Below, in pieces: positions 15,346 through 60,981 of a stretch of DNA of 64,000 nt (its first letter is position 1; every line of letters begins with the position of its first letter). The translations under genes and the position numbers were made by a program. Source of the DNA: Curvibacter lanceolatus ATCC 14669 (lineage in GTDB: Bacteria > Pseudomonadota > Gammaproteobacteria > Burkholderiales > Burkholderiaceae_C); NCBI RefSeq assembly GCF_000381265.1, contig NZ_KB906274.1, forward strand, positions 1 to 64,000, read 5' to 3'. The notes beneath the pieces were generated by a model that had not been told where the DNA came from, did no database searches, and saw only the letters and a list, made by a program, of their open reading frames with translations.

Positions 15346-16344
15346 ATGTCTGCCACCAATGCCTTGCCAACGCTGATCGACCCCTTCGGGCGACGCATCG
15401 ATTACCTGCGCGTGTCGATCACCGACCGCTGCGACCTGCGCTGCACCTACTGCCTGCCCAAAGGCTTCAAGGGCTATGAAGAGCCGGCCCACTGGCTGCG
15501 CCCGCCCGAGTTGCTGCGCCTGCTGGGCCTGTTTGTGCGCAGCGGCGTGGCCAAGGTGCGCCTCACCGGGGGCGAGCCCCTGCTGCGGGGCGGCCTGACC
15601 GGGCTGGTGCGCGGCATCGCGGCGCTGCCGGGGCTGCGTGACCTGTCCCTGTCGAGCAACGGCACCCAACTGGCCCGCCTGGCCGCCGAATTGCGCGACG
15701 CCGGCCTGCAGCGGCTCAACATCAGCCTGGACACCCTGGACCGGCGCTGCTTCGCCCGCATCACCGGCCGCGACGCACTGGACAGCGTGCTGAGCGGCCT
15801 GCAGGCCGCCCAGGCCGTGGGCTTCAACCCTATCAAACTCAACATGGTGGTGCAGCCGGGCGTGAACCTGGACGAGGTCGAGAGCGTGCTGGCCTTTGCC
15901 ATGACCCACGGGCATGTGCTGCGGCTGATCGAACCCATGCCCATGGGCAGCACCGGCCAAGCCGTGGCGGCTCCCGACCTCAGCGCCCTGGGGCAGCGCC
16001 TGGCCCAGCAGCATGGCCTGCTGCCCTGCGTGATGGGCCAGGGCAGCGGCCCGGCGCGCTACTGGGCCGGGCCCGATGGCCGCGCCAGCCTGGGCGTGAT
16101 CACCCCGATGTCGCAGCACTTCTGCGCCGCCTGCAACCGCGTGCGCCTGGGGGTGGATGGCACGCTCTACCTGTGCCTGGGCCAGAACGACCGGGTGCCG
16201 CTGGGCCCGATGCTGCGCGCCGGCGCCAGCGATGCCGAACTGTTGCAGGCCCTGCACGCCGGCATCGCGGCCAAGCCCGAACGCCATGTCTTCCAAGAGC
16301 AACCTCAGCATGTAATGCGATTCATGGCGCAAACTGGTGGATGA
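15346..16344 (+). CDS. moaA: GTP 3',8-cyclase, molybdenum cofactor synthesis
   Basis: The protein has 332 residues from ATG 15346. The radical SAM cluster is Cys29-x3-Cys33-x2-Cys36 (CDLRCTYC), followed by the SAM-binding LTGGEPLLR. The second, substrate-binding cluster is Cys260, Cys263 and Cys277 (CAACNR...C). MoaA usually ends in Gly-Gly, and this protein does (QTGG). It converts GTP to 3',8-cyclo-7,8-dihydro-GTP, the first step to molybdopterin. Its place next to narXL and narGHJI fits supply of the cofactor for nitrate reductase. Confidence 0.95.
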   Translation: MSATNALPTLIDPFGRRIDYLRVSITDRCDLRCTYCLPKGFKGYEEPAHWLRPPELLRLLGLFVRSGVAKVRLTGGEPLLRGGLTGLVRGIAALPGLRDLSLSSNGTQLARLAAELRDAGLQRLNISLDTLDRRCFARITGRDALDSVLSGLQAAQAVGFNPIKLNMVVQPGVNLDEVESVLAFAMTHGHVLRLIEPMPMGSTGQAVAAPDLSALGQRLAQQHGLLPCVMGQGSGPARYWAGPDGRASLGVITPMSQHFCAACNRVRLGVDGTLYLCLGQNDRVPLGPMLRAGASDAELLQALHAGIAAKPERHVFQEQPQHVMRFMAQTGG

Positions 16345-16402
16345 AGGGCATCGACAACACCCAAAAGCGCACAATCCACGCTTCAAACAATGGGGAATTG
16401 GA

Positions 16403-18457: not shown

Positions 18458-19188
18458 CCCTGCCCGCTCCAATCCGACTCCTGGTGGTGGACGACCACAA
18501 GCTGTTCCGCCGCGGGCTGGTGGCCCTGCTCAGCCAGCAGGCCTGCCTGCAGGTGGTGGCCGAAGCCACCGATGCAGGCGAGGCCCTGAAGCTGGCGGCC
18601 CAGCACGCGCCCGAGGTGGTGCTGCTGGACAACCACCTGCCCGGCGTGCACGGGGTGGATGCGCTGCCCCAGTTGATGGCGCTGGTGCCCGCGCCCCAGG
18701 TCATCATGCTCACGGTGAGCGAGGATGCCGAAGACCTGTCACAGGCCCTGGCCCGCGGCGCCAGCGGCTACCTGCTCAAGACGGTGGATGGCGACGAGCT
18801 GGTGGCCTCGATACGGCGCGTGCGCGAGGGCCAGTCGGTGGTCTCGCCCGAGATGACGGGCAAGCTGTTTGCGGCTTACCGCCAGGCCGTGGCCTCAGCC
18901 CCCATGCCCGAGCCCGTGCAGGCGGCCGAAGCGGCGCCCGAGGCCTTGCCCACCGAGGCGCCAGCGCGCCCACCTGAGCCTGGCCTGGCAGCCTCCAAGC
19001 TGTCGCCCCGCGAGCGCGAGATCCTGCGCGAGATTGCGCGTGGCGCCAGCAACAAGGAGATCGCGCGCACCCTCAAGATCGCCGAGACCACGGTCAAGAT
19101 CCACGTGCAGCACATCTTCCGCAAGCTCAACCTGAGCTCGCGGGTGCAGGCCGCGGTGTACGCCGTGACTGATCCAGATCAAGCTTGA
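18454..19188 (+). CDS. narL: Nitrate response regulator
   Basis: The protein has 244 residues and overlaps narX by the ATGA. The receiver domain has Asp13/Asp14 and the phosphorylation site Asp59 (LLDNHLPG), with YLLKT as the conserved Lys. A proline/alanine-rich linker (about 148-178) leads to a LuxR-type helix-turn-helix (SPREREILREIARGASNKEIARTL). The linker is longer than in E. coli NarL. It should bind TACYYMT heptamers; one such site lies just after the gene in front of narK1. The FNR-like box overlaps its last codons. Confidence 0.94.
   Translation: MTLPAPIRLLVVDDHKLFRRGLVALLSQQACLQVVAEATDAGEALKLAAQHAPEVVLLDNHLPGVHGVDALPQLMALVPAPQVIMLTVSEDAEDLSQALARGASGYLLKTVDGDELVASIRRVREGQSVVSPEMTGKLFAAYRQAVASAPMPEPVQAAEAAPEALPTEAPARPPEPGLAASKLSPREREILREIARGASNKEIARTLKIAETTVKIHVQHIFRKLNLSSRVQAAVYAVTDPDQA
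19169..19182. promoter_or_regulatory. FNR/Anr-type box upstream of narK1
   Basis: CTGAT-CCAG-ATCAA matches the FNR consensus TTGAT-N4-ATCAA at nine of ten positions. It overlaps the end of narL and lies about 110 bases before narK1. With the usual centre at -41.5, transcription would begin near 19217, leaving a leader of about 75 bases. Anaerobic activation of the narK1K2GHJI operon is inferred. Confidence 0.7.
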
Positions 19189-19197
19189 GGCGCGGAC

Positions 19198-19213
19198 TAC
19201 TCCTTTAGGAGGA
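19198..19213. promoter_or_regulatory. NarL 7-2-7-type inverted heptamer site
   Basis: TACTCCT is an exact TACYYMT heptamer. After two bases comes AGGAGGA, which matches the inverted heptamer AKRRGTA at six of seven positions. The 7-2-7 spacing is that preferred by NarL and NarP dimers. It lies 30 bases downstream of the FNR-like box centre and 79 bases before narK1. Confidence 0.6.
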
Positions 19214-19291
19214 TGGTGCCTGCCCGGATGCAGGATGTTCAGGGCGCACTGATTTTTTGACACTGGGGACCACTTAAAAGGAGGTTCTCCC

Positions 19292-20530
19292 ATGTCTTCG
19301 CGCGGCAAAGCCTTGTCGGTATTGACCGTCAGCACGCTCGCCTTCACGGTGTGCTTCATGGTCTGGATGATGTTCGGCGTGATCGGCATCCCGATCCGCA
19401 AGACCCTGGGCCTCAACGCCACCGAGTTCGGCTTGTTGACGGCCATGCCGGTGCTCACCGGCTCACTGGTGCGCGTGCCCCTGGGCGTGTGGACCGACCG
19501 CTACGGCGGCCGCATCGTGATGATGGGCACCCTGCTGGCCTGCGTGCTGCCGATCTGGCTCATGCGCTACGCCACCCAGTACTGGCAGTTTCTGGTGCTG
19601 GGCCTGTTCGTGGGCCTGGCCGGCGGCGTGTTCTCGGTGGGCACGCCGTATGTGGCGCGCTGGTTCCCCAAGCACCAGCAAGGCTTTGCCATGGGCGTGT
19701 TCGGCGCCGGCAACTCGGGCGCTGCAGTCAACAAATTTGTAGCCCCGGCCCTGATCGTGGCCTTTGGCTGGGCGGTGGTGCCCCAGGTGTACGCCGCCAT
19801 CATGCTGGGCGTGGCCGTGCTGTTCTGGTTTGGCAGCGCCAGCGACCCGAGCCATCGGGTGGCCAGCAAGAGCAGCTGGGGCGACCAGCTCAAGACGCTG
19901 AAGGACCCGCGCGTGCTCAAGTACTGCCAGTACTACAGCATCGTGTTCGGGGGCTATGTGGGCCTGAGCCTGTGGATGGTGCAGTACTACGTGGGCGAAT
20001 ACGGTCTGGACATCCGCTGGGCCGCCCTGCTGGCCGCCTGCTTCTCGCTGCCCGGGGGCGTGCTGCGCGCCATTGGCGGCTACCTGTCCGACAAGCACGG
20101 CGCGCACCAGGTCACCTGGTGGGTGCTGTGGGTGAGCTGGATCTGCCTGTTTCTGCTGAGCTACCCGCAAACCGATTTCAGCATCACCACCGTCAACGGG
20201 GCGCGCAGCTTCCACATCGGGCTCAATGTGTATGGCTTCACGACCCTGATGTTCACCCTGGGCATTGCCTTTGCCTTCGGCAAGGCCAGCGTGTTCAAGT
20301 ACATCAGCGACGACTACCCCGGCAACATCGGCGCCATCTCGGGCGTGGTGGGCCTGGCCGGTGGCCTGGGCGGCTTCGTGCTGCCCATCCTGTTCGGCGT
20401 GCTGCTCGACCTCACGGGCGTGCGGTCCAGCGCTTTCATGCTGCTGTATGGCGTGGTCTGGGTCTCGCTGTTCTGGATGTACTTCACCGAAGTGCGCACC
20501 CGCGACGTGCTGCGCGGCAATACCGTCTGA
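19292..20530 (+). CDS. narK: NarK1-type nitrate transporter (MFS)
   Basis: The protein has 412 residues and a strong ribosome binding site (AAGGAGG). It is a 12-segment major facilitator protein with the nitrate signature GVFGAGNSGAAVNKF and a conserved Arg in the first half (RVPLGVWTDRYGGR). NarK1-type members import nitrate with protons to start respiration. It is the first of two narK-like genes in tandem, 38 bases apart, before narGHJI. The promoter region carries FNR-like and NarL-like sites. Type I versus II assignment follows gene order and length and is inference. Confidence 0.92.
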   Translation: MSSRGKALSVLTVSTLAFTVCFMVWMMFGVIGIPIRKTLGLNATEFGLLTAMPVLTGSLVRVPLGVWTDRYGGRIVMMGTLLACVLPIWLMRYATQYWQFLVLGLFVGLAGGVFSVGTPYVARWFPKHQQGFAMGVFGAGNSGAAVNKFVAPALIVAFGWAVVPQVYAAIMLGVAVLFWFGSASDPSHRVASKSSWGDQLKTLKDPRVLKYCQYYSIVFGGYVGLSLWMVQYYVGEYGLDIRWAALLAACFSLPGGVLRAIGGYLSDKHGAHQVTWWVLWVSWICLFLLSYPQTDFSITTVNGARSFHIGLNVYGFTTLMFTLGIAFAFGKASVFKYISDDYPGNIGAISGVVGLAGGLGGFVLPILFGVLLDLTGVRSSAFMLLYGVVWVSLFWMYFTEVRTRDVLRGNTV

Positions 20531-20568
20531 GCGGCCCCTCCGACACAACCCTTTCAAAAGGAATCCCC

Positions 20569-22017
20569 ATGTCAAGCAAGATCGTGGCGCCCGAGCGCGC
20601 CCGCCCCGGCAAGACCCTGGCGGTCTGGACGCCGGAAGACAAGGCCTTCTGGGCCTCGCAGGGCCAGGCCATCGCCAAGCTCAACCTGTGGCTGTCGGTG
20701 CCGGCCCTCTTCCTGGCCTTTGCCATCTGGCAGCTGTGGAGCGTGGTGGCCGTCAACCTGCCCTTGATGGGCTTCAAGTACTCCACCAACCAGCTGTTCT
20801 GGCTGGCCTCGGCACCGGCCCTGTCGGGCGCCACGCTGCGCATCTTCTACTCGTTCATGGTGCCCCTGGTGGGCGGGCGGCGCTGGACCGCCATCTCCAC
20901 CGCCTCGCTGCTGCTGCCCGCCATCGGCATCGGCTTTGCGGTACAAGACGCCAACACGCCCTACCCCACCATGCTGATGCTGGCCCTGCTGTGCGGCCTG
21001 GGCGGTGGCAATTTCTCCTCGTCGATGGCCAATATCAGCTTCTTCTTTCCGAAGGAGCGCAAGGGCTCGGCCCTGGGCGTGAACGCCGGCCTGGGCAACC
21101 TGGGCGTGTCGGTGGTGCAGTTTCTGAGCCCCATCATCATCTCGGTGGGCGTGTTCGGTGTGCTGGGCGGCGAGCCCCAGCACATCAGCAAGGCCGGTCA
21201 GGTGAGCGAGGTATGGGCCCAGAATGCCGCCTTCGTGTGGGTGCCCTGGATTGCCCTGACCGCCGTGGCCGCCTGGCTCTTCATGAACGACATCGCCGAC
21301 GCCAAGGCCTCGTTCGCTGCCCAGGCCGCCATCTTCCGCAACAAGCACAACTGGGTGATGTGCCTGCTGTACCTGGGCACCTTCGGCTCCTTCATCGGGT
21401 ATGCGGCGGGCTTTCCGCTGCTGATCAAGTCGCAGTTCAAGGATGTGAACCCGCTGGCCTATGCCTGGCTGGGCCCGCTGGTGGGCGCGCTGATCCGCCC
21501 CGTGGGTGGCTGGCTGGCCGACAAGCTGGGCGGCGCCCGCGTCACGCTGTGGAACTTCGTGGTGATGGCCCTGGCCGTGGTCGGTGTGCTGTTCTTCCTG
21601 CCCAAGGGGGCGGGCAGCGCCTTCGCCCTGCCCTGGGGCCCGGCCGAGGGGAGCTTCACGGGCTTCTTTTTGATGTTCCTGGTGCTGTTCTTCACCACCG
21701 GCGTCGGCAATGGCTCGACCTTTCGCATGATCCCGGTGATCTTCATCGACCTGAAGACCCGCCCCGCCCCGCGCAACGACGAGCTGGCCCAGGCCCAGGC
21801 GGTCAAGGAGGGCAACACCGAGTCGGCCGCCGTGCTGGGCTTCAGCGCCGCAGTGGCGGCCTACGGCGGCTTCTTCATCCCCAAAAGCTATGGCTCATCG
21901 ATCGCCAGCACCGGCGGCCCCGAGTTGGCCCTGCTGACCTTCATCGCCTTCTACCTGCTGTGCATCGTGGCCACCTGGTGGTTCTACGCCCGCCGCGACG
22001 CCGACGTGCCGTGCTGA
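20569..22017 (+). CDS. narK2: NarK2-type nitrate/nitrite transporter (MFS)
   Basis: The protein has 482 residues from ATG 20569 with AAAAGGAA upstream. The open frame reaches much further upstream, but that part is a shadow of narK1. It has 12 membrane segments and the nitrate signature GVNAGLGNLGVSVVQF. A longer loop (GGEPQHISKAGQVSEVW, about 203-219) and a large loop near residues 400-420 separate it from NarK1. The NarK2 type is generally a nitrate/nitrite antiporter that exports the nitrite made by NarGHI. It precedes narG by 46 bases and is probably co-transcribed. Confidence 0.92.
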   Translation: MSSKIVAPERARPGKTLAVWTPEDKAFWASQGQAIAKLNLWLSVPALFLAFAIWQLWSVVAVNLPLMGFKYSTNQLFWLASAPALSGATLRIFYSFMVPLVGGRRWTAISTASLLLPAIGIGFAVQDANTPYPTMLMLALLCGLGGGNFSSSMANISFFFPKERKGSALGVNAGLGNLGVSVVQFLSPIIISVGVFGVLGGEPQHISKAGQVSEVWAQNAAFVWVPWIALTAVAAWLFMNDIADAKASFAAQAAIFRNKHNWVMCLLYLGTFGSFIGYAAGFPLLIKSQFKDVNPLAYAWLGPLVGALIRPVGGWLADKLGGARVTLWNFVVMALAVVGVLFFLPKGAGSAFALPWGPAEGSFTGFFLMFLVLFFTTGVGNGSTFRMIPVIFIDLKTRPAPRNDELAQAQAVKEGNTESAAVLGFSAAVAAYGGFFIPKSYGSSIASTGGPELALLTFIAFYLLCIVATWWFYARRDADVPC

Positions 22018-22063
22018 ACCCGCCCGCGCAGCCTTACCGAACCGAATTCAACGGAGCCACCCC

Positions 22064-25000
22064 ATGAGTCATTTTCTGGACCGACTGAGCTTTTTTGCCC
22101 AGGCCCGCGAACCCTTTGCCAACGGCCACGGCGTCACCACCGGTGAAGACCGCACCTGGGAGGACGCCTACCGCAACCGCTGGCAGCACGACAAGATCGT
22201 GCGCTCCACCCATGGCGTGAACTGCACGGGCTCGTGCTCGTGGAAGATCTACGTCAAGGGCGGCATCGTGACCTGGGAAACCCAGCAGACCGACTACCCG
22301 CGCACCCGCCCTGACCTGCCCAACCACGAGCCGCGCGGCTGCGCCCGCGGCGCCAGCTACTCGTGGTACCTGTACAGCGCCAACCGCGTCAAGCACCCCA
22401 TGGTGCGCGGCGAATTGCTCAAGCACTGGCGCGCCGCCCGCACCGTGGCCAAGAGCCCGGTCGATGCCTGGGCCACCCTGATGGCCAATGACGAGATCCG
22501 CCGCAGCTGGCAGACCCAGCGCGGCCTGGGCGGCTTTGTGCGCAGCAGCTGGGACGAGGTCAACGAGATCATCGCCTCGGCCAATGTGCACACCATCAAG
22601 GCCCACGGGCCCGACCGCATCATCGGCTTCTCGCCGATCCCGGCCATGTCGATGGTGTCGTATGCCGCCGGCAGCCGCTACCTGAGCCTGATCGGGGGCG
22701 TGTGCATGAGCTTCTACGACTGGTACTGCGACCTGCCGCCCGCCAGCCCCCAGGTCTGGGGCGAGCAGACCGATGTGCCCGAGTCGGCCGACTGGTACAA
22801 CTCGACCTTCATCATCGCCTGGGGCTCCAATGTGCCGCAGACGCGCACACCCGACGCCCACTTCTTCACCGAGGTGCGCTACAAGGGCGCCAAAACGGTG
22901 GCAGTGACCCCCGACTACGCCGAGATCTCCAAGCTGGCCGATCTGTGGATGCACCCCAAGCAAGGCACCGATGCGGCCGTGGCCATGGCCATGGGCCATG
23001 TGATCCTGAAAGAGTTCTACTTCGACAAACGCAGCGTCTACTTTGACGACTATGCCCGCCGCTACACCGACCTGCCCATGCTGGTGATGCTGCAGGAGCA
23101 GGACACCCCGGCCGGCCGCGCGCTGGTGCCCGGCCGCTACCTGCGCGCCAGCGACCTGGTCGCCGAGGCCACCACCGCCAATGCCGACTGGAAGACCCTG
23201 GCCTGGGACGAGCAAGGCCAGGTGGTACAGCCCCAGGGTTCGATCGGCTTTCGCTGGGGCGCCGAGGGCCGGCCCGACCAGGGCCGCTGGAACCTGGAGA
23301 GCAAGGAGGCCGTGGACGGCCGCCCGGTGCAGCTCAAGCTCTCGGTGCTGGAGGGCGCCGGTGGCGGCACCCCGGCCATGACCAGTGTGAACAAGGTGGC
23401 CTTCCCCTACTTCGGCGGCATCGAGTCGCCCCAGTTCACGGCCAACAAGCAAGGCGATGTGCTGCTGCGCAACGTGCCCATGCAACGACTGCTGGTGCAG
23501 CAGGACGGCGCGCCACGCGAAGTCTGGGTGGCCACGGTGTTCGACCTGCAGGTGGCCAGCTACGGCGTGCACCGCGGCCTGCGCAATGCTGCGGGCGATC
23601 TGGTGGACGACGGCGCGCTCTCCTATGACGACAACCTGCCCTACACCCCGGCCTGGCAGGAGCAGATCACCGGCGTGCCGCGCAGCCAGGTGCTGACGGT
23701 GGCGCGCCAGTTCGCCGACAACGCCGACAAGACCCGGGGCAAGTCCATGGTCATCATCGGCGCGGCCATGAACCACTGGTACCACAGCGACATGAACTAC
23801 CGCGGCATCATCAACATGCTGATGATGTGCGGCTGCATCGGCCAATCCGGGGGCGGCTGGGCCCACTATGTGGGTCAGGAGAAGCTGCGCCCGCAGACCG
23901 GCTGGACCGCCCTGGCCTTTGCCCTGGACTGGTCACGCCCGCCGCGCCAGCAGAACTCGACCAGCTTCTTCTATGCCCACACCGACCAGTGGCGCTACGA
24001 GAAACTGGGGGTGGAAGAGGTGCTCTCGCCCCTGGCCGACAAGGCCCAGTTTGGCGGCAGCATGATCGACTACAACGTGCGCGCCGAACGCATGGGCTGG
24101 CTGCCCAGCGCCCCGCAGCTCAAGACCAACCCGCTGCAGGTGTGCCGCGACGCCAGCGCCCAGGGCCTGGACGCCAAGGACCATGTGGTCGATGCGCTGA
24201 AGAACGGCTCGCTGCAGATGTCTTGTGAAGACCCGGATGACCCGGCCAACTGGCCGCGCAACATGTTTGTCTGGCGCTCCAACATCCTGGGCTCCAGCGG
24301 CAAGGGGCATGAGTACTTTCTCAAGCACCTGCTGGGCACCACCCACGGCGTGCAGGGCAAGGCCCTGGGTGAACAGGCCCCCCCCGAGGCGCCTGGCGCC
24401 TCCCCCCAGGGGGCAGCCGGCTTGGGGCGGCCCGGCGCCGGCTTCTCAGCCAAGCCGCAAGAGGTGCGCTGGCACGCCGAAGCCCCCCAGGGCAAGCTGG
24501 ATCTGCTGGTGACGCTGGACTTCCGCATGAGCACCACCTGCCTGTACTCGGACATCGTGCTGCCCACCGCCACCTGGTATGAGAAGAACGACCTCAACAC
24601 CAGCGACATGCACCCCTTCATCCACCCGCTGTCCACCGCCGTGGACCCGGCCTGGGAGGCGCGCTCGGACTGGGACATCTACAAAGGCTTCGCCAAGAAG
24701 TTCTCCGAGGTGTGCGTGGGCCACCTGGGGGTCGAGAAAGAAGTGGTGCTGACGCCGATCATGCACGACACCCCGGGCGAGATGGCCCAACCCTTCGACG
24801 TGAAGGACTGGAAGCGCGGCGAGGTGGATCTGATCCCGGGCCGCACGGCACCGCAGATCACGGTGGTTGAGCGCGATTACCCCAACACCTACCGCCGCTT
24901 CACCGCCCTGGGCCCGCTGATGGACAAGCTGGGCAATGGCGGCAAGGGCATCGGCTGGAACACCCAGGACGAGGTGCGCCAGTTGGGTGAGCTCAATGGC

Positions 25001-25954
25001 ACGGTGCGCGAGGCCGGTGTGAGCCAGGGCCGCCCCTGCATCGACACCGATATCGACGCCGCCGAGGTGGTGATGATGCTGGCCCCCGAGACCAACGGCC
25101 AGGTGGCCGTGAAGGCATGGCAGGCCCTGTCCAAGCAGACCGGGCGCGAACACGCCCACCTGGCCCTGCACCGCGAAGACGAGAAGATCCGCTTCCGCGA
25201 CATCCAGGCCCAGCCGCGCAAGATCATCTCCTCGCCCACCTGGTCGGGGCTGGAGAGTGAAAAGGTCAGCTACAACGCGGGCTACACCAATGTGCATGAG
25301 CTGATCCCATGGCGCACCCTGACCGGGCGCCAACAGTTCTACCAGGACCACCCGTGGATGCGCGCCTTTGGCGAGGGCTTTGTGAGCTACCGCCCACCGG
25401 TGGACCTGAAGACCCTGGCCGAGGTGCAGGGCCTGAAGCCCAACGGGCACCGCGAGATCGCGCTGAACTTCATCACCCCGCACCAGAAGTGGGGCATCCA
25501 TTCGACCTACACCGACAACCTGCTGATGCTGACGCTGAACCGCGGCGGCCCGGTGGTCTGGCTCAGCGAGGACGACGCCCAAAGCGCCGGCATCGTGGAC
25601 AACGACTGGGTGGAGCTGTTCAACGCCAATGGCGCCATCGCGGCCCGCGCGGTGGTGAGCCAGCGGGTGAAGAACGGCATGGTGATGATGTACCACGCCC
25701 AGGAAAAGATCATCAACACACCGGGCTCGGAGATCACGGGCACACGCGGCGGCATCCACAACTCGGTGACCCGCATCGTGCTCAAACCCACCCACATGAT
25801 CGGTGGCTACGCCCAGCTCAGCTACGGCTTCAACTACTACGGAACGATAGGCACCAATCGCGACGAGTTCGTGGTGGTGCGCAAGATGGCCCGGGTCGAC
25901 TGGCTCGACGGCGAAGCCACCCCAGGCGCCCACACCCAAGGAGCACACGCATGA
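22064..25954 (+). CDS. narG: Respiratory nitrate reductase alpha subunit
   Basis: The protein has 1296 residues. The N-terminal FS0 [4Fe-4S] cluster is bound by His50, Cys54, Cys58 and Cys93. YDWYCDLP carries the Asp that ligates molybdenum. The enzyme reduces nitrate to nitrite at the inner face of the membrane using the molybdo-bis(guanine dinucleotide) cofactor, together with NarH and NarI. At about residues 772-796 there is an extra Pro/Gly/Ala-rich segment between LGEQ and KPQEVRW, encoded by a palindromic repeat (24378-24442). The E. coli protein, as I recall it, has only a few residues there. The frame stays open and the sequence on both sides is normal. The ATGA overlap with narH indicates coupling. 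Confidence 0.96.
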   Translation: MSHFLDRLSFFAQAREPFANGHGVTTGEDRTWEDAYRNRWQHDKIVRSTHGVNCTGSCSWKIYVKGGIVTWETQQTDYPRTRPDLPNHEPRGCARGASYSWYLYSANRVKHPMVRGELLKHWRAARTVAKSPVDAWATLMANDEIRRSWQTQRGLGGFVRSSWDEVNEIIASANVHTIKAHGPDRIIGFSPIPAMSMVSYAAGSRYLSLIGGVCMSFYDWYCDLPPASPQVWGEQTDVPESADWYNSTFIIAWGSNVPQTRTPDAHFFTEVRYKGAKTVAVTPDYAEISKLADLWMHPKQGTDAAVAMAMGHVILKEFYFDKRSVYFDDYARRYTDLPMLVMLQEQDTPAGRALVPGRYLRASDLVAEATTANADWKTLAWDEQGQVVQPQGSIGFRWGAEGRPDQGRWNLESKEAVDGRPVQLKLSVLEGAGGGTPAMTSVNKVAFPYFGGIESPQFTANKQGDVLLRNVPMQRLLVQQDGAPREVWVATVFDLQVASYGVHRGLRNAAGDLVDDGALSYDDNLPYTPAWQEQITGVPRSQVLTVARQFADNADKTRGKSMVIIGAAMNHWYHSDMNYRGIINMLMMCGCIGQSGGGWAHYVGQEKLRPQTGWTALAFALDWSRPPRQQNSTSFFYAHTDQWRYEKLGVEEVLSPLADKAQFGGSMIDYNVRAERMGWLPSAPQLKTNPLQVCRDASAQGLDAKDHVVDALKNGSLQMSCEDPDDPANWPRNMFVWRSNILGSSGKGHEYFLKHLLGTTHGVQGKALGEQAPPEAPGASPQGAAGLGRPGAGFSAKPQEVRWHAEAPQGKLDLLVTLDFRMSTTCLYSDIVLPTATWYEKNDLNTSDMHPFIHPLSTAVDPAWEARSDWDIYKGFAKKFSEVCVGHLGVEKEVVLTPIMHDTPGEMAQPFDVKDWKRGEVDLIPGRTAPQITVVERDYPNTYRRFTALGPLMDKLGNGGKGIGWNTQDEVRQLGELNGTVREAGVSQGRPCIDTDIDAAEVVMMLAPETNGQVAVKAWQALSKQTGREHAHLALHREDEKIRFRDIQAQPRKIISSPTWSGLESEKVSYNAGYTNVHELIPWRTLTGRQQFYQDHPWMRAFGEGFVSYRPPVDLKTLAEVQGLKPNGHREIALNFITPHQKWGIHSTYTDNLLMLTLNRGGPVVWLSEDDAQSAGIVDNDWVELFNANGAIAARAVVSQRVKNGMVMMYHAQEKIINTPGSEITGTRGGIHNSVTRIVLKPTHMIGGYAQLSYGFNYYGTIGTNRDEFVVVRKMARVDWLDGEATPGAHTQGAHA
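24378..24442. repeat. Palindromic GC-rich repeat inserted in frame inside narG
   Basis: A run of eight C is followed by GAGGCGCC-T-GGCGCCTC (24386-24402, perfect eight-base arms), then a CCCCCC-A-GGGGG pairing (24402-24413) and two copies of GCCGGC (24416-24421, 24437-24442). This has the look of a REP-like interspersed element as seen in Burkholderiales intergenic DNA. It is translated here as about 25 low-complexity residues. Confidence 0.65.
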
Positions 25955-27474
25955 AGATCCGAGCCCAAATCGGCATGGTCCTGAATCTGGACAAATGCAT
26001 CGGCTGCCACACCTGTTCGGTGACCTGCAAGAACGTCTGGACCAACCGCCCCGGCGTGGAATACGCCTGGTTCAACAACGTCGAGACCAAGCCCGGCATC
26101 GGCTACCCCAAGGAATGGGAGAACCAGGACAAGTGGAACGGTGGCTGGGTGCGCAAGAGCGACGGCCGCATCGAGCCGCGCCAGGGCGGCAAGCTCAAGC
26201 TGCTGATGCGCCTGTTTGCCAACCCCAACCTGCCCGAGATCGACGACTACTACGAGCCCTTCACCTTCGACTACGAGCACCTGCAGAGCGCGCCCAAGTC
26301 GAAGGCGCCGCCCACGGCGCGCCCGCGCAGCCTGATCACCGGCCAGCGCATGGAGAAAATCGAATGGGGCCCGAACTGGGAGGAGATCCTGGGCGGCGAG
26401 TTCAGCAAGCGCAGCAAGGACAAGAACTTCGAAGACATCCAGAAGGACATCTACGGCCAGTTCGAGAACACCTTCATGATGTACCTGCCGCGCCTGTGCG
26501 AGCACTGCCTGAACCCGACCTGCGTGGCCAGCTGCCCCTCAGGCTCGATCTACAAGCGCGAGGAAGACGGCATCGTGCTGATCGACCAGGACAAGTGCCG
26601 CGGCTGGCGCATGTGCGTGTCCGGCTGCCCCTACAAGAAAATCTACTACAACTGGCAAAGCGGCAAGGCCGAGAAGTGCATCTTCTGCTACCCCCGCATC
26701 GAGGCCGGCCAGCCCACCGTGTGCTCCGAAACCTGCGTGGGCCGCATCCGCTACCTGGGCGTGCTGCTGTATGACGCCGACCGCATCGAGCAGGCCGCCC
26801 AGACCGAGCACGACCGCGACCTGTACCAGGCCCAGCTCGATGTGTTCCTGGATCCGCACGACCCGTCCGTGATCGAACAGGCCCGGCGCGACGGCGTGCC
26901 CGAAGCCTGGCTGACCGCCGCGCGCAACAGCCCGGTCTACAAGATGGCGGTGGACTGGAAGGTTGCCCTGCCCCTACACCCCGAGTACCGCACGCTGCCC
27001 ATGGTCTGGTATGTGCCACCGCTGTCGCCCATCCAGGCCGCCGCCAACTCGGGCGACCTGGGCGTGAATGGCGAGATCCCCGACGTGAACCAGCTGCGCA
27101 TCCCCGTGCAGTACCTGGCCAACCTGCTGACCGCTGGCGACACCGGCCCCGTGATGCGGGCGCTGGAGCGCATGCTGGCCATGCGCGCCTACATGCGTTC
27201 GCGCCACGTGGACCAGGTCGAGAACACCGCGGTGCTGAACCAGGTGGGCCTGGACGCGGCCACGGTGCAGGACATGTACGACATCATGGCCATTGCCAAC
27301 TACGAAGACCGCTTCGTCATCCCCAGCACCCACCGCGAATACGCTGAGAACACCTTCGACGTGCGCGGCGGCTGCGGCTTCTCGTTCGGCAACGGCTGCT
27401 CGGACGGTGCCAGCGAGCCCAGCCTGTTCGGGGCCAAGAAGAAGCGCACCATCCCGATCAAGGCGGAGGAATGA
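25951..27474 (+). CDS. narH: Respiratory nitrate reductase beta subunit
   Basis: The protein has 507 residues from ATG 25951, overlapping the narG stop by four bases. Upstream in-frame sequence is a narG shadow. Four iron-sulfur clusters are set by ferredoxin-like Cys groups: Cys16, 19, 22 and 26 (CIGCHTCSVTCKN), CEHCLNPTCVASCP, CRGWRMCVSGCPY and KCIFCYPR...CSETC. The Trp in CRGWRMC is the usual replacement that gives a [3Fe-4S] cluster. It carries electrons from NarI hemes to NarG. It ends in another ATGA overlap with narJ. Confidence 0.96.
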   Translation: MKIRAQIGMVLNLDKCIGCHTCSVTCKNVWTNRPGVEYAWFNNVETKPGIGYPKEWENQDKWNGGWVRKSDGRIEPRQGGKLKLLMRLFANPNLPEIDDYYEPFTFDYEHLQSAPKSKAPPTARPRSLITGQRMEKIEWGPNWEEILGGEFSKRSKDKNFEDIQKDIYGQFENTFMMYLPRLCEHCLNPTCVASCPSGSIYKREEDGIVLIDQDKCRGWRMCVSGCPYKKIYYNWQSGKAEKCIFCYPRIEAGQPTVCSETCVGRIRYLGVLLYDADRIEQAAQTEHDRDLYQAQLDVFLDPHDPSVIEQARRDGVPEAWLTAARNSPVYKMAVDWKVALPLHPEYRTLPMVWYVPPLSPIQAAANSGDLGVNGEIPDVNQLRIPVQYLANLLTAGDTGPVMRALERMLAMRAYMRSRHVDQVENTAVLNQVGLDAATVQDMYDIMAIANYEDRFVIPSTHREYAENTFDVRGGCGFSFGNGCSDGASEPSLFGAKKKRTIPIKAEE

Positions 27475-28184
27475 CCATGAGCACGGCACACAACACCCCC
27501 GCGCGCAGCCTGCGCGCCCTGGCCCACCTGCTGACCTACCCGGATGCCGCGCTGCGCCAGGTGCTGCCCGAGATCGAGGCGGCACTGCAGCAGGAGGCCG
27601 CGCTGTCGGCCGAACACCGCGCCGGCCTGCTGGCGCTGACGCAGGCCCTGCAGAGCAGGGACCCGCTCGAGGTCGAGGGTGACTACGTCGACCTGTTCGA
27701 CCGCGGGCGGGCCACCTCGCTGCACCTGTTCGAGCACGTGCACGGCGATTCGCGTGACCGCGGCCCGGCCATGATCGACTTGCTGCAGACCTACGAGCAA
27801 GGCGGCCTGTACCTGGACCCGGCCCGCACCGATGGCGAACTGCCCGACCACCTGCCAGTGGTGCTGGAGTTCGCCTCCACGCTGGCGCCCCAGGCCTGCC
27901 GCGATTTCATCGGCGAGTTCGCCCACATCCTGAACAGCGTTCACGACGCGCTGAACCACCGGCAAAGCCCCTATGCCGTCGCCCTGGCCGCTGTGCTGGC
28001 ACTGGGCGGCCAGGCCCTGGTGGTGCGCCCCCTGGTGGCCGAGCCCGCCATGGATGAAAGCTGGGCCGAGCCCGAAGCCTTTGCCGGTTGCAGCAGCCCA
28101 GGCCAGCAAAACCCCGGCCAGAGCCAGCCCATCCACTTCATGCCCCTTGCCGGGGCAGCCCAGCCACGAGGAGCCCTGTCATGA
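27471..28184 (+). CDS. narJ: Nitrate reductase assembly chaperone
   Basis: The protein has 237 residues from ATG 27471. A second ATG at 27477 is an alternative. The family core is clear: LLTYPDAALRQ, the motif YVDLFDRGRATSLHLFEHVHGDSRDRGPAM and the helical remainder. NarJ binds apo-NarG and allows molybdenum cofactor insertion before membrane attachment. The last 40 residues (after PAMDESW) are Pro/Gln/Gly-rich and likely disordered. It overlaps narH and narI by four bases each. Confidence 0.95.
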   Translation: MTMSTAHNTPARSLRALAHLLTYPDAALRQVLPEIEAALQQEAALSAEHRAGLLALTQALQSRDPLEVEGDYVDLFDRGRATSLHLFEHVHGDSRDRGPAMIDLLQTYEQGGLYLDPARTDGELPDHLPVVLEFASTLAPQACRDFIGEFAHILNSVHDALNHRQSPYAVALAAVLALGGQALVVRPLVAEPAMDESWAEPEAFAGCSSPGQQNPGQSQPIHFMPLAGAAQPRGALS

Positions 28185-28876
28185 GCCTCAGCCATCAATT
28201 CATCTTCGGCATCTACCCCTACCTCTGCGGTGTGATCTTTCTGCTGGGCAGCCTGATCCGCTTCGACCGAGAGCAGTACAGCTGGCGCAGCGAGTCGAGC
28301 CAGATGCTGGCCTCGGGCAGCCTGCGCTGGGGCTCCAACCTGTTCCATGTGGGTGTGATCGGCCTGTTCTTCGGCCACCTGTTCGGCATGCTGACGCCGC
28401 CCGAGATCGTGCACGCCCTGGGCGTGAGCCCGGCGCAGAAGCAACTGCTGGCCGTGGTGGCCGGCGGCACCCTGGGCGGCCTGGGCCTGATCGGCCTGCT
28501 GCTGCTGATCCGCCGCCGCCTGGGCAACGCCCGGGTGCGCGCCACCTCGCACAAGCGGGACTTCGTGGTGCTGTTCTGGCTGCTGGCCACCCTGCTGCTG
28601 GGCCTGTCCACCGTGCCGTTGTCGCTGCAGCACAGCGATGGCACCACCATGCTGCTGCTGATGGCCTGGGCGCGCCACATCGTCACTTTCCAGGGGGACG
28701 CGGCCAGCCTGATCGCGGGCGTGTCGCCGGTGTTCAAGCTGCACATGTTCATGGGCATGAGCCTGTTTGCCATCTTCCCCTTCACCCGCCTGGTGCATGT
28801 GTGGAGCGGCTTTGCCGCAGCGGGCTATGTGGCCCGACCCTGGCAGATCGTGCGCAGTCGCAAGATCGGCCTCTGA
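28181..28876 (+). CDS. narI: Respiratory nitrate reductase gamma subunit, cytochrome b
   Basis: The protein has 231 residues from ATG 28181. It has five membrane segments. His residues in WGSNLFHVGVIGLFFGHLFG and in KLHMFMGMSLFAIFPFTRLVHVWSG supply the two b-heme ligand pairs. It oxidises quinol at the outer face of the membrane and passes electrons to NarH. The length is normal for the family. It closes the overlapping narGHJI unit. Confidence 0.95.
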   Translation: MSLSHQFIFGIYPYLCGVIFLLGSLIRFDREQYSWRSESSQMLASGSLRWGSNLFHVGVIGLFFGHLFGMLTPPEIVHALGVSPAQKQLLAVVAGGTLGGLGLIGLLLLIRRRLGNARVRATSHKRDFVVLFWLLATLLLGLSTVPLSLQHSDGTTMLLLMAWARHIVTFQGDAASLIAGVSPVFKLHMFMGMSLFAIFPFTRLVHVWSGFAAAGYVARPWQIVRSRKIGL

Positions 28877-40231: not shown

Positions 40232-40354
40232 GGTGCTGAGACTCCATTTGAGGGGACTGGCGGGGTGATCGGTTCGGCCCCCGGCAACGGTGCTGATGGG
40301 GGATGGCTGAATTCTGGAGCGCCCCTCAATTCAAAAAAAGCGATTTTTTGTTGT

Positions 40355-56189: not shown

Positions 56190-56358
56190 AAACAGAAGGC
56201 GGCTGCGCCTGGCGTGGCCCTGAATTTCCTGGAGACAAGAACTGACCCGATTCGCGCAGCGCCCCCTTCAACGGGTGGCCGGGCGTGGGCTGGGTGCGGC
56301 CTGGTCGACAGGGATTTCCGCCCCCTCGGACGACAGATCGCATCCATCGGAAAACAAC

Positions 56359-57666
56359 ATGAAACTCAATCGCTTGACCACCCTGGTCATCCTGGCCATG
56401 GTCCTGGGCGTGCTGGTCGGCTATGCCTGCCATGAATACGCACCCAGCCCCGAAGCCGCGAAAGACATCGCGGGCTACTTCAGCATCCTGACCGACATCT
56501 TCCTGCGCATGATCAAGATGATCATTGCGCCGCTGGTTTTTGCCACGCTGGCCGCCGGGCTGGCCAACATGGGTGACTCGAAGGCCGTGGGCCGCATCGG
56601 CACCCGCGCCGTGGGCTGGTTTCTGAGCGCCTCGCTGGTCTCGCTGCTGCTGGGCCTGGTGATTGCCAACCTGCTGCAGCCCGGCGCCGCCTTGAGCGTG
56701 CCGCTGCCCGATGCGGGCACGAGCACCCAGCTCAAGACCGGATCGCTCAACCTCAAAGAGTTCATCACCCAGGTGTTCCCCAAGAGCATCGTCGAGTCGA
56801 TGGCCAGCAACTCGATCCTGCAGATCCTGGTGTTCTCGCTGTTCTTCGGCCTGGCCCTGGGGCACCTGCACAACCAGGCCGCCCGCTCGCTGGTGGCCAC
56901 CCTCGACGAGGTGGTGCACGTGATGCTCAAGGTCACCGACTACGTGATGCGCTTTGCCCCCGTGGGCGTGTTCGGTGCCGTGGCCGGCGCCATCACCACC
57001 CAGGGCATTGGCATGTTGAGCGTGTTCGGCCGCTTCATGCTGAGCTTCTACCTGGCCCTGGCCGCCCTGTGGCTGGTGTTGATCGCTGCAGGCTACCTGG
57101 TGCTGGGCCGCGATGTGTTCCGCCTGGTCAAGCTGGTGCGCACACCGATGCTGATCGGCTTCTCCACCGCCAGCAGCGAATCGGTCTACCCCAAGCTGAT
57201 GGAACAGCTTGAGAAATTTGGCGTGAGCCCGCGCGTGACCGGCTTCGTGCTGCCGCTGGGCTACTCGTTCAACCTCGACGGCTCGATGATCTACACCACC
57301 TTCGCGGCCATCTTCATCGCCCAGGCCTACGGCATCGACATGCCGCTGAGCGCACAGATCACCATGCTGCTGGTGCTGATGGTGTCGAGCAAGGGCATTG
57401 CCGGTGTGCCACGCGCTTCGCTGGTGGTGGTGGCCGCCGTGCTGCCGATGTTCAAGCTGCCTGAAGCGGGCGTGCTGCTGATCCTGGGCATCGACCACTT
57501 CCTGGACATGGGTCGCACCATGACCAACGTGCTGGGCAACGCGATTGCCACCGCCGTGGTGGCCAAGTGGGAAGGCGCCATTTCGCCCGTGGACCCGGCC
57601 CTGGCCGAAGCCGAAGAAGCGCTGCCGGTGGAAGGTGACGACAGCGCCGTGGCCGCCCGCGCCTGA
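56359..57666 (+). CDS. dctA: C4-dicarboxylate transport protein
   Basis: The protein has 435 residues from ATG 56359 (MKLNRLTTLVILAMVLG); an earlier in-frame start is not supported. It has the DAACS family marks: STASSESVYPKLMEQLEKFGVSPRVTGFVLPLGYSFNLDGSMIYTTFAAIF and the later SKGIAGVPRASLVV, with eight membrane segments and two hairpins. It imports succinate, fumarate and malate with sodium or protons. The sigma-54 promoter and dctBD downstream show its likely control. Confidence 0.94.
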   Translation: MKLNRLTTLVILAMVLGVLVGYACHEYAPSPEAAKDIAGYFSILTDIFLRMIKMIIAPLVFATLAAGLANMGDSKAVGRIGTRAVGWFLSASLVSLLLGLVIANLLQPGAALSVPLPDAGTSTQLKTGSLNLKEFITQVFPKSIVESMASNSILQILVFSLFFGLALGHLHNQAARSLVATLDEVVHVMLKVTDYVMRFAPVGVFGAVAGAITTQGIGMLSVFGRFMLSFYLALAALWLVLIAAGYLVLGRDVFRLVKLVRTPMLIGFSTASSESVYPKLMEQLEKFGVSPRVTGFVLPLGYSFNLDGSMIYTTFAAIFIAQAYGIDMPLSAQITMLLVLMVSSKGIAGVPRASLVVVAAVLPMFKLPEAGVLLILGIDHFLDMGRTMTNVLGNAIATAVVAKWEGAISPVDPALAEAEEALPVEGDDSAVAARA

Positions 57667-57720: not shown

Positions 57721-60700
57721 ATGCCCCCAAAGTATCTCTTTAGCACCCTTGCACGCCACCTGCAGCGTGCACCGCGCTTTGCCCCCATCCTGTTGCTGCT
57801 GCTGGCCCTGATGGGCCTGAGCAGCCTGGGCGCCTACCAGGTGGCACAGCGCCTGGGCCTGGCCGAAATGCAGGCCACCGGCCTGCACCGGCTGGACCTG
57901 TATGCCGCCAGCCTGGAGCGCGAGATCGGCAAATACGCCTTCCTGCCCGGCACCCTGGAGCTGCAGGCCGAGGTGCTGGACCTGCTGGCCCACCCGGCAG
58001 GCCAGAAGCCACCGAACAAGGTCAATGCCTACCTGGAGCAGCTCAACGACCGGGCCGGCACCCTGGCCATCTATGTGATCAACCCCCAGGGCCTGGTGCT
58101 GGCCACCAGCAACTGGCGCCGCGCCGACAGCTACCTGGGTGAGAACCTGTCGTTTCGCCCGTATTTCCGCGATGCCGTGGCCCAGGGCAGCGGCCGCTTC
58201 TTCGGCATCGGCACCACCCGGGGTGAACCGGGCTACTACCTGGCTTCGACCCTGGTCGATGCCCACGGCACCCAGGGCATCGCCGTGATCAAGGTCAGCC
58301 TGGACCAGCTCGAACAATCCTGGACCACGGTGGAGGCCCCGGTTCTGGTCAGCGACGAGAACGGCGTGGTCATCCTGGGCTCGGTGCCCGACTGGAAGTT
58401 CACCACCCTGCGCACGCTGGACGAGGCCACGGCCAAGGCCTTCGACCAGACCCAGCAGTACAACCGCCGCGCCTTGAAGCCCCTGGGCCTGCGTGAGCTG
58501 CGCGAGCTGGAGCACGGCGCCCGCCTGGTCAGCATCGCGAAAGAGCGCCCCGAGATGGTCTCGGTCTACCCCGTGGCGGGCCGCTTTTTGGCACAGTCGC
58601 GGGCCTTGCCCGGCACCCCCTGGACCCTGACCGTGCTCTCGCACCTGGAACAGGTGGACGAGATTGCCCAAAGCCACGCCCTGATCGCGCTGATTGGCGC
58701 GGCCCTGCTGTTCGTGCTGGGCCTGATGCTCAACGAACGCCGCCGCCACCTGAAAGACCGGCTGGCCGCACGCGAGGCCCTGCAGGCCGCCCACGACGAG
58801 CTGGAGCGCAAGGTGGAGCAGCGCACGGCCGACCTGTGGGCCAGCAACCACCGACTGCAGGCCGAGGTGACGGAGCGCACCCGCACCGAGGCCAACCTGC
58901 GTGCCGCCCAGGACGAGCTGGTACAGGCCGGCAAGCTGGCCGCCATCGGCCAGCTCTCCACCGGCATTGCGCACGAGCTGAACCAGCCCCTGACCGCACT
59001 GCGCACCCTGTCGGGCAACAGCCTGCGTTTTCTGGAGCGGGGCGACCTGGCCACCACCCGCACCAACCTCGAACGCATGGCCCAGCTGGCCGACCGCATG
59101 GGCCGCATCACCGGGCAACTGCGCTCGTTTGCCCACAAGTCGCCCGTGGCCAGCCGCCCCGTGCCGCTGGACCAGGCGGTGGCCAATGCCCTGGCCGTGC
59201 TCGAAGGCCGCCTCGCCGAAAGCCACGCCACCCTCCAGTGCCCCGCCAGCAGCCCCTGTCCGGTGGCCCTGTGCGACGGCAACCGACTGGAACAGGTGCT
59301 GATCAACCTGATCGGCAATGCGCTCGACGCGGTGCACGCCCCCGAGCGGCCGCGCATCGACATCCGCTGCAGCCAGCAGGCCGACCGGGTGCAGGTGCAG
59401 GTGCGCGACCATGGCCCCGGCCTGGCCGAGGCCGTGCAGGCCCACCTGTTCGAACCCTTCTTCACCACCAAGGAGGCCGGCGTGGGCCTGGGCCTGGGCC
59501 TGGCCCTGTCGGCCGGCATCGTGCGCGAGTTCCAGGGCAGCCTGAGCGGGGCCAACCACCCCGAGGGCGGCGCCGTGTTCACCCTGGAACTGCCCAGGGC
59601 CCCCGACGAGCCCTCTGACACAATGAGCCCCCCCCCCATGACTGATGCCCTCAAAGTCCTGATCATCGAAGACGACCCCGACATCGTGCTGGGTTGCGAG
59701 CAGGCACTGCAACTCGAAGGCATTGCCTGCGACAGCGTGGGCAGCGCCGAGGCGGCGCGACGACGCCTGGGGCCCGACTTTGCCGGCATCGTGGTCAGCG
59801 ACATCCGCCTGCCGCGCTGCGACGGCCTGGCCTTCATGCGCGAATTGATGGCCCTGGACCCCGAGCTGCCCGTGGTGCTGATCACCGGCCACGGCGACAT
59901 TGCCATGGCCGTGCAGGCCATGAAAGACGGCGCCCACGATTTCATCCAGAAGCCCTTCGCCCCCGAGTACCTGGTGGGTGCGGTGCGCCGCGCGCTGGAG
60001 AAGCGTCGCCTGGTGCTGGAGGTGCGCGAGTTGCGCCGCCAACTGGCCCAGCGCGACACCATCGAAGGCCAGTTGCTGGGCCAGGCACCCGGCATGCAAC
60101 GCCTGCGCCAGATGCTGGCCGGCCTGGCCAGCAGCGCGGCCGATGTGCTGATCCAGGGCGAGACCGGCACCGGCAAAGAGCTGGTGGCGCGCTGCCTGCA
60201 CGAGGCCAGCCCGCGCCGCCAGGGCAACTTTGTGGCCATCAATTGCGGCGGCCTGCCCGACACCCTGTTCGACAGCGAGATGTTCGGCCACGAGGCCGGG
60301 GCCTACACCGGCGCGGCCAAGAAACGCATCGGCAAGATCGAGCACGCCAACGGCGGCACCCTGTTCCTCGACGAGATCGAGAGCATGCCGCTGGGCATGC
60401 AGATCAAGCTGCTGCGCGTGCTGCAGGAGCGCACGCTGGAGCGCCTGGGCTCCAACACGCTGATCCCCATCGACTGCCGCGTGATCGCCGCCACCAAGAC
60501 CGACCTGCTGACCCTGGCCGACCAGGGCCGCTTCCGGGCTGATCTGTACTACCGGCTGAGCGTGGCCACCGTGGCCCTGCCGCCGCTGCGCGAGCGGCGC
60601 GAAGACATTCCCTTGTTGTTTGAACACTTTGCGCTGCAAGGTGCCGCCCGGCACCAGCGCTCGGCCCCCGAGACCAGCGCCGAGCGCATGCGCCAGCTCA

Positions 60701-60981
60701 TGGCCTACCCCTGGCCCGGCAATGTGCGTGAGCTGCGCAACGTGGCCGAGCGCTGCGTGCTGGGCATCGAAGCAGGCTCGCCGCCGTTTTCAGGCGCCAC
60801 CGGCCCGGCCACGGCCCAGCCATTGGCCGGCACGGTCGAGGCCTTTGAGCGGGCCCTGATTGCAGACGCCCTGCGCCGCCATGGCGGCAGCCTGGCGCGC
60901 AGCGCCGAGGCCCTGGGCGTGGCCAAGACCACCTTGCACGACAAGATCCGCAAGCACGGGCTGGATCAGGGCGGCGTCTGA
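57721..60981 (+). CDS. dctB: DctB-type sensor kinase joined in frame to a DctD-type regulator
   Basis: As sequenced the frame is one protein of 1086 residues. Residues 1-635 form a DctB-type kinase: a membrane segment (about 21-42), a periplasmic double-PAS-like domain, a second membrane segment (about 320-340), a coiled-coil linker and a kinase core with His418 in IAHELNQPLTALR, then NLIGNALDAV and VGLGLGLALS. Residues 640-1086 are the DctD regulator. No stop separates the two; the junction is a run of ten C (59628-59637). With nine C the kinase would end TGA overlapping the regulator ATG, the arrangement common elsewhere in this window. The fusion may be real, phase-variable or a sequencing error. 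Confidence 0.75.
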   Translation: MPPKYLFSTLARHLQRAPRFAPILLLLLALMGLSSLGAYQVAQRLGLAEMQATGLHRLDLYAASLEREIGKYAFLPGTLELQAEVLDLLAHPAGQKPPNKVNAYLEQLNDRAGTLAIYVINPQGLVLATSNWRRADSYLGENLSFRPYFRDAVAQGSGRFFGIGTTRGEPGYYLASTLVDAHGTQGIAVIKVSLDQLEQSWTTVEAPVLVSDENGVVILGSVPDWKFTTLRTLDEATAKAFDQTQQYNRRALKPLGLRELRELEHGARLVSIAKERPEMVSVYPVAGRFLAQSRALPGTPWTLTVLSHLEQVDEIAQSHALIALIGAALLFVLGLMLNERRRHLKDRLAAREALQAAHDELERKVEQRTADLWASNHRLQAEVTERTRTEANLRAAQDELVQAGKLAAIGQLSTGIAHELNQPLTALRTLSGNSLRFLERGDLATTRTNLERMAQLADRMGRITGQLRSFAHKSPVASRPVPLDQAVANALAVLEGRLAESHATLQCPASSPCPVALCDGNRLEQVLINLIGNALDAVHAPERPRIDIRCSQQADRVQVQVRDHGPGLAEAVQAHLFEPFFTTKEAGVGLGLGLALSAGIVREFQGSLSGANHPEGGAVFTLELPRAPDEPSDTMSPPPMTDALKVLIIEDDPDIVLGCEQALQLEGIACDSVGSAEAARRRLGPDFAGIVVSDIRLPRCDGLAFMRELMALDPELPVVLITGHGDIAMAVQAMKDGAHDFIQKPFAPEYLVGAVRRALEKRRLVLEVRELRRQLAQRDTIEGQLLGQAPGMQRLRQMLAGLASSAADVLIQGETGTGKELVARCLHEASPRRQGNFVAINCGGLPDTLFDSEMFGHEAGAYTGAAKKRIGKIEHANGGTLFLDEIESMPLGMQIKLLRVLQERTLERLGSNTLIPIDCRVIAATKTDLLTLADQGRFRADLYYRLSVATVALPPLRERREDIPLLFEHFALQGAARHQRSAPETSAERMRQLMAYPWPGNVRELRNVAERCVLGIEAGSPPFSGATGPATAQPLAGTVEAFERALIADALRRHGGSLARSAEALGVAKTTLHDKIRKHGLDQGGV
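59628..59637 (+). repeat. Run of ten C at the dctB-dctD junction
   Basis: The tract sits between ATGAG and ATGACTGAT. With ten C the two genes are fused. One C fewer gives a TGA that overlaps the dctD ATG as ATGA. One C more gives a stop two codons later (CAT GAC TGA). So only the ten-C state (or ten plus or minus three) joins the proteins. Confidence 0.9.
59638..60981 (+). CDS. dctD: DctD-type sigma-54 activator (internal start)
   Basis: From ATG 59638 the protein has 447 residues and is a complete regulator by itself. Receiver: Asp55 phosphorylation site in VVSDIRLP, conserved KPF. AAA+ domain: Walker A GETGTGKE (174-181), the sigma-54 contact loop GAYTGA (Phe to Tyr relative to the common GAFTGA) and Walker B LFLDEIE. 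The C-terminal Fis-type helix-turn-helix is GSLARSAEALGVAKTTLHDKIRKHGL. It should activate dctA from its sigma-54 promoter through the two palindromes upstream. Confidence 0.85.
   Translation: MTDALKVLIIEDDPDIVLGCEQALQLEGIACDSVGSAEAARRRLGPDFAGIVVSDIRLPRCDGLAFMRELMALDPELPVVLITGHGDIAMAVQAMKDGAHDFIQKPFAPEYLVGAVRRALEKRRLVLEVRELRRQLAQRDTIEGQLLGQAPGMQRLRQMLAGLASSAADVLIQGETGTGKELVARCLHEASPRRQGNFVAINCGGLPDTLFDSEMFGHEAGAYTGAAKKRIGKIEHANGGTLFLDEIESMPLGMQIKLLRVLQERTLERLGSNTLIPIDCRVIAATKTDLLTLADQGRFRADLYYRLSVATVALPPLRERREDIPLLFEHFALQGAARHQRSAPETSAERMRQLMAYPWPGNVRELRNVAERCVLGIEAGSPPFSGATGPATAQPLAGTVEAFERALIADALRRHGGSLARSAEALGVAKTTLHDKIRKHGLDQGGV

Follow-up and report, generated by a model that had tools for sequence, protein, structure and literature searches.

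The dctBD locus of Curvibacter lanceolatus ATCC 14669

The window, i.e. the whole stretch of 64,000 nucleotides analysed here, is part of contig 22 in a draft assembly (G000) of 72 contigs and 6.83 Mb and carries a putative C4-dicarboxylate locus, all features of which are on the plus strand. An SDF-family dicarboxylate symporter gene (56275..57666; Pfam SDF, 386 bits) stands 5′ of dctB. Its nearest NCBIfam models are DctA (361 bits) and GltP (322 bits), each scoring under its own cut-off. After 54 bases it is followed by a single open reading frame (57721..60981, 1086 amino acids, ATG start), which joins a kinase half to a regulator half and has the neighbour expected of a DctB/DctD system, a C4-dicarboxylate-type transporter gene. 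The initial annotation had described this frame as open from a DctB-type kinase through ten C residues into a DctD-type regulator, and re-reading of the sequence gave the same coordinates and length.

The kinase half comprises a dCache-like sensor region (aa 59-235; 57895..58425), which at 39 bits remains under the Pfam gathering score of 45, followed by matches to the HisKA (aa 410-472; 58948..59136) and HATPase_c (aa 519-627; 59275..59601) domains. The junction reads GAG, ten C (59628..59637) and ATGACTGATGCC. The regulator part (59638..60981) begins with an ATG at 59638-59640 and contains a response-regulator receiver (REC) domain (aa 646-755; 59656..59985), a sigma-54 interaction AAA+ domain (aa 786-951; 60076..60573) and a Fis-type HTH (aa 1038-1079; 60832..60957). 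The HATPase and REC matches are separated by 18 residues, and the domains are intact. Among the best 25 of 77 and of 99 NCBIfam families, respectively, the top matches were PgtB and AtoS for the kinase and NtrC and AtoC for the regulator, all below cut-off, and no DctB- or DctD-specific model was found among these listed matches. Thus, the names dctB and dctD rest on the architecture, a putative membrane kinase with HisKA and HATPase and a regulator with REC, sigma-54 AAA+ and Fis domains, and on the neighbourhood of the symporter gene. A search for a sigma-54 promoter before the transporter gene with a strict consensus gave no match in the window, and a looser consensus gave a single minus-strand match at 57550, within the transporter gene itself.

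Tract length and the kinase-regulator junction in relatives

The length of the C tract was changed in a script solely to read the positions of the resulting stop codons. Nine C yield a kinase of 639 amino acids whose TGA overlaps the regulator ATG (ATGA), and eleven C yield a kinase of 641 amino acids, two codons longer, both as the initial annotation had predicted. With eight C the kinase has 640 amino acids, its stop being, as with eleven C, the TGA after the one used at nine C, and with ten C there is no stop. The tract length modulo three therefore decides on the kinase stop, and one length in three fuses dctB and dctD. Kinase and regulator domains are whole at 8 to 12 C, and the linkage alone changes.

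Junctions were resolved in 80 relatives, consisting of 79 loci among the matches listed and the nearest genome (G002). All 80 encode the kinase and the regulator as two separate proteins. The two genes overlap in 72 junctions, with 4 nt shared in 33 cases and 8 nt in 30, and a gap is present in the remaining 8. In 3 of the 80 the regulator is in the frame of the kinase, with a stop between them, and the longest C-run at any of these junctions is six. In a 399-genome sample of the family, 92 genomes matched with E at or below 1e-150, and the match was uninterrupted over both halves in G000 only. We also inspected 14 further loci from this search, selected because an open frame of unusual length, or one with a stop in it, surrounds the regulator. 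None is a natural fusion. The kinase is in another frame than the regulator in 13 of them, their long frames are shadow frames, and the locus with kinase and regulator in one frame (L252, a partial kinase match) has a stop between the two. A fusion existing without any C tract, which the initial annotation had named as a finding that would speak against its proposal, was thus looked for in the 80 junctions (matches listed and G002) and the 14 further loci, and none was found.

The kinase of G002 is 98% identical at the amino acid level, and its junction reads GAG-CCCCCCTC-ATGACTGA with an 8-nt overlap. Compared with this junction, G000 differs by a T to C change plus two extra bases. The 8-nt spacer CCCCCCTC sits in the frame of eleven C, so the closest separate state is not the nine-C one. 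As G002 has CCCCCCTC where G000 has ten C, the fusion is a derived state, seen in one genome.

Other C/G runs and the disruption of mutS

The C10 run itself is not surprising in G000 and lies within chance expectation. An order-2 Markov model of the window predicts 0.23 C/G runs of at least ten per 64 kb, and 14 of 60 simulated windows reached one such run, as observed. The whole genome has 15 of them, compared to about 25 extrapolated from the window model. Runs of eight C are not enriched in the window either (5 matches, 9.96 expected). By a simple codon test, which is too strict to split genic from intergenic runs and misses some genic ones, 4 of the 49 C/G runs of at least nine in the genome are flanked by coding sequence on both sides, in each case in the same frame. 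One coding flank was scored for 14 runs and none for 31. The tract in the window is one of two runs of at least ten with both flanks coding by this test. The test scored the nagZ, oxidoreductase and phaM runs described below as coding on one side only, and the L137 run, which is inside a long frame, as coding on neither. Two long C/G runs, of 26 (G000:C26:42781-42806, L121) and 15 bases (G000:C1:120204-120218, L110), have no clear coding sequence on either flank by the same test.

The alignment of G000 with G002 covered 377,514 bases in four blocks, three of which were picked for holding G000 tracts, and the rates given here are biased accordingly. Four of the six pure C/G 8-runs of G002 are unchanged in G000, and the other two are longer by two. 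Among the 14 pure 7-runs of G002, ten have the same length in G000, one has gained two bases, two are shorter by one and one is shorter by two. In the reverse direction, nine pure 7-runs of G000 have an equal length in G002, two are shorter there by one base and one by four. With dctBD included, four 7- or 8-base runs of G002 are two bases longer in G000. Three of the five A/T runs of 8-9 bases in G000 are unchanged in G002, and the remaining two differ by substitution.

Further genes are affected by such runs. A nagZ-type gene (beta-N-acetylhexosaminidase model; L115 518-1570) and a PIG3-type quinone oxidoreductase gene (L143 183-1085) are frame-broken at runs lengthened by two, and a phaM-type gene (L149 559-1438) is frame-broken at a C9 run. 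In the relatives these genes are open in one frame (nagZ in 3/3 resolved, with a fourth contig ending there; oxidoreductase in 4/4; phaM in 4/4). Genes of the LysR, lpxD and indolepyruvate-oxidoreductase types that contain C9 or C10 keep their frame. Some tracts are also purer than their counterparts. The amidase leader (L113 1502-1526) has a pure G25 whose counterpart in G002 is equally long but contains four T (no outgroup resolved), the LysR gene (L120 1501-1510) has a pure G10 where both G002 and G003 have GGGTGGGGTG, with two T at the same length, and the phaM run has C in G000 where G002 has A, corresponding to T to G on the G strand. A genome-wide GGT-to-GGG error or mutT-like effect was considered and rejected, as the counts over 239 kb are symmetric (72 vs 78). 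Any effect of this kind would therefore be limited to long tracts.

A search with the MutS model identified a complete gene in G002. In G000 it gave two fragments, one at the end of contig 26 (L198, 1317-3732) and one at the start of contig 35 (L199, 1-2839). One fragment carries domains I, II and half of III, the other the remainder of III together with IV and V. Both contig ends carry an identical 1,306-bp element coding for an IS3-family transposase, and the flanks meet on the G002 mutS with a 3-bp overlap, as expected from an insertion with target duplication. Since four identical copies of this element occur at contig ends, the two mutS contigs are linked only by deduction, but mutS stays split however they are joined. 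G000 gave no further mutS1 match, and mutL is open in both G000 and G002. Hence, G000 has one of the two gene defects, a disrupted mutS or mutL, that mark a mismatch-repair mutator. The corresponding signature in base changes, a transition excess and a longer branch, was not seen in G000 in five resolved locus sets, the mutL pair lacking an outgroup. There were 116 derived sites in G000 vs 144 in G002, with 439 sites unresolved, and these comprised 77 vs 80 transitions and 39 vs 64 transversions. Loss of mutS would therefore have to be recent. Among the literature matches listed there was no Curvibacter work on mutS or homopolymers, and nothing was found that joins mutS, insertion sequence, mutator, homopolymeric tract and frameshift.

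Origin and significance of the fused frame

Replication slippage and an error in the draft, both of which the initial annotation had offered, could each account for the ten-C state, and the two carry near equal weight. We put the probability at just under one half (about 0.47) that the spacer in a two-gene unit has grown to C10 through slippage left unrepaired because mutS is split, with the fusion as a by-product. On this account dctB and dctD would have formed an ordinary pair of genes, the start of the regulator overlapping the stop of the kinase as in the relatives, and their translation would probably be coupled. In the assembly, compared with the nearest relative, the C-rich spacer of 8 nt that precedes the dctD ATG has become pure C and has gained two bases, and the resulting C10 removes the kinase stop by its length modulo three. 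The likeliest origin would be unrepaired replication slippage, for which the observed split of mutS, through a presumed loss of repair, may be the cause. No Shine-Dalgarno-like sequence was seen by eye directly 5′ of the dctD ATG, so free DctD probably requires that ribosomes end the kinase at the overlap and then restart. Because C10 removes the stop at the overlap, most DctD would be synthesised as a domain bound to the membrane. Cells with C10 would thus contain one membrane-bound kinase-regulator chain and little free DctD, and drift to C9 or C11 would restore two proteins.

In mutation-accumulation lines of P. aeruginosa deficient in mismatch repair, G:C runs accounted for 104 of 108 indels, insertions outnumbered deletions by 3.32 to 1 and the mean indel size was 1.11 (PMC4702332). 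The T to C change at dctBD belongs to the class most raised in those lines (PMC4702332). By analogy, this pattern would fit base and direction in G000, where C/G runs are likewise affected, but not the step of two, and the strong transition excess of the P. aeruginosa lines was not seen here (PMC4702332). The lengthening of runs of at least seven by two bases, as opposed to the mean of 1.11, is accordingly evidence against slippage (PMC4702332), as are the three pure 7-runs of G002 that are shorter in G000, for which the data do not give the direction of change. Furthermore, the apparent T-to-G purification at the LysR, amidase and phaM runs is not readily explained by loss of mutS.

An assembly or sequencing error is nearly as likely as slippage. 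In that case the draft would have miscounted or smoothed long C/G runs, and the true tract would be 8, 9 or 11 C or an interrupted spacer similar to CCCCCCTC. An error is suggested by the lengthenings in steps of two, by the three further genes broken at C/G runs in an assembly of 72 contigs and by the G25 and G10 tracts, which carry T in G002 and, for the latter, in G003. Miscalls in long G runs would explain these purified tracts. Homopolymer length errors rise with length, and homopolymer substitution errors have been reported for Illumina instruments (PMC11140927). However, the draft agrees exactly with G002 in 4/6 pure 8-runs and 10/14 pure 7-runs, GGT to GGG is unbiased, the lpxD and indolepyruvate oxidoreductase genes stay in frame with C9 or C10, and the disruption of mutS supplies a biological cause. 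Whether through slippage or miscount, the fused frame seems to be a side effect of tract length and not an evolved device.

The initial annotation had also proposed that slippage in the tract switches between a fused and a two-protein phosphorelay. We regard a true contingency switch maintained by selection as very improbable. The domains of both proteins survive at 8 to 12 C with the linkage alone differing, and precedents exist for poly-C and poly-G tracts. In the NgoAV hsdS1/hsdS2 system of Neisseria gonorrhoeae, a G/C run likewise lies at a gene junction, where loss of one base fuses the frames and other tract lengths keep them apart (PMC9577141). The NgoAV tract, however, varies among 92 strains with a change in specificity, whereas the dctBD tract was seen in one genome and is absent in relatives (PMC9577141). 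The bvgS gene of Bordetella pertussis similarly has a C-run (C6/C7) in a betaproteobacterial sensor-kinase gene, but C7 truncates and inactivates BvgS, whereas kinase and regulator of dctBD are whole at every length (PMC1891110). Against a switch, no tract or fusion is retained in the 80 relatives (matches listed and G002) or the 14 further loci, the nearest spacer is interrupted by T, the tract length is within chance expectation, and the other altered tracts fall in unrelated genes. The C-tract of Helicobacter arsS, considered as a further precedent, is not described in the accessible part of PMC2715451 and was not used. Among the literature matches listed we found no case of a homopolymer tract that switches a kinase and its regulator between covalently joined and separate forms while preserving both.

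There is a similarly slight chance that the two-protein system of this strain has given way to a single DctB-DctD chain that is stable and functional, although the domains of the fused frame are intact with 18 residues from HATPase to REC. Fused relatives are missing among the 80 junctions (matches listed and G002) and the 14 loci, and the linkage depends on a mutable run. A sigma-54 AAA+ activator must oligomerise at the DNA, for which a membrane tether is an obstacle. The output of the hybrid two-component systems of Bacteroides is AraC-type. These systems likewise combine a membrane sensor kinase and a transcription regulator in one polypeptide, but form a conserved class, whereas dctBD has a sigma-54 activator and its fusion is not shared by the relatives (PMC11253607).

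Equally improbable is a toggle of this dicarboxylate-sensing system between a single-chain sigma-54 activator tethered to the membrane and a free two-protein phosphorelay, in which ribosomal slippage on CCC codons additionally gives both forms from one mRNA. CCC-C stretches have been linked to +1 ribosomal frameshifting by proline tRNA, and a +1 or -1 shift at C10 would also end the kinase beside the ATG.

If by-products of tract length of this kind enter databases, an apparent one-chain sigma-54 phosphorelay may pass for a new architecture, and the relatives caution that it reflects the tract length in one genome. If C10 is confirmed, the strain would be a naturally mutS-disrupted host in which slippage may let DctB and DctD exist side by side in fused and separate form, and it would allow the effect of membrane-tethering a sigma-54 activator to be addressed.

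Stop-start junctions of the ATGA type were also claimed for other genes in the window. The hmu junction was absent from the filtered junction list, which gave GTGA at 40265 and 48895. The four in the nar region (16316-28876; gene names as in the initial annotation) were recovered at 18454, 25951, 27471 and 28181.
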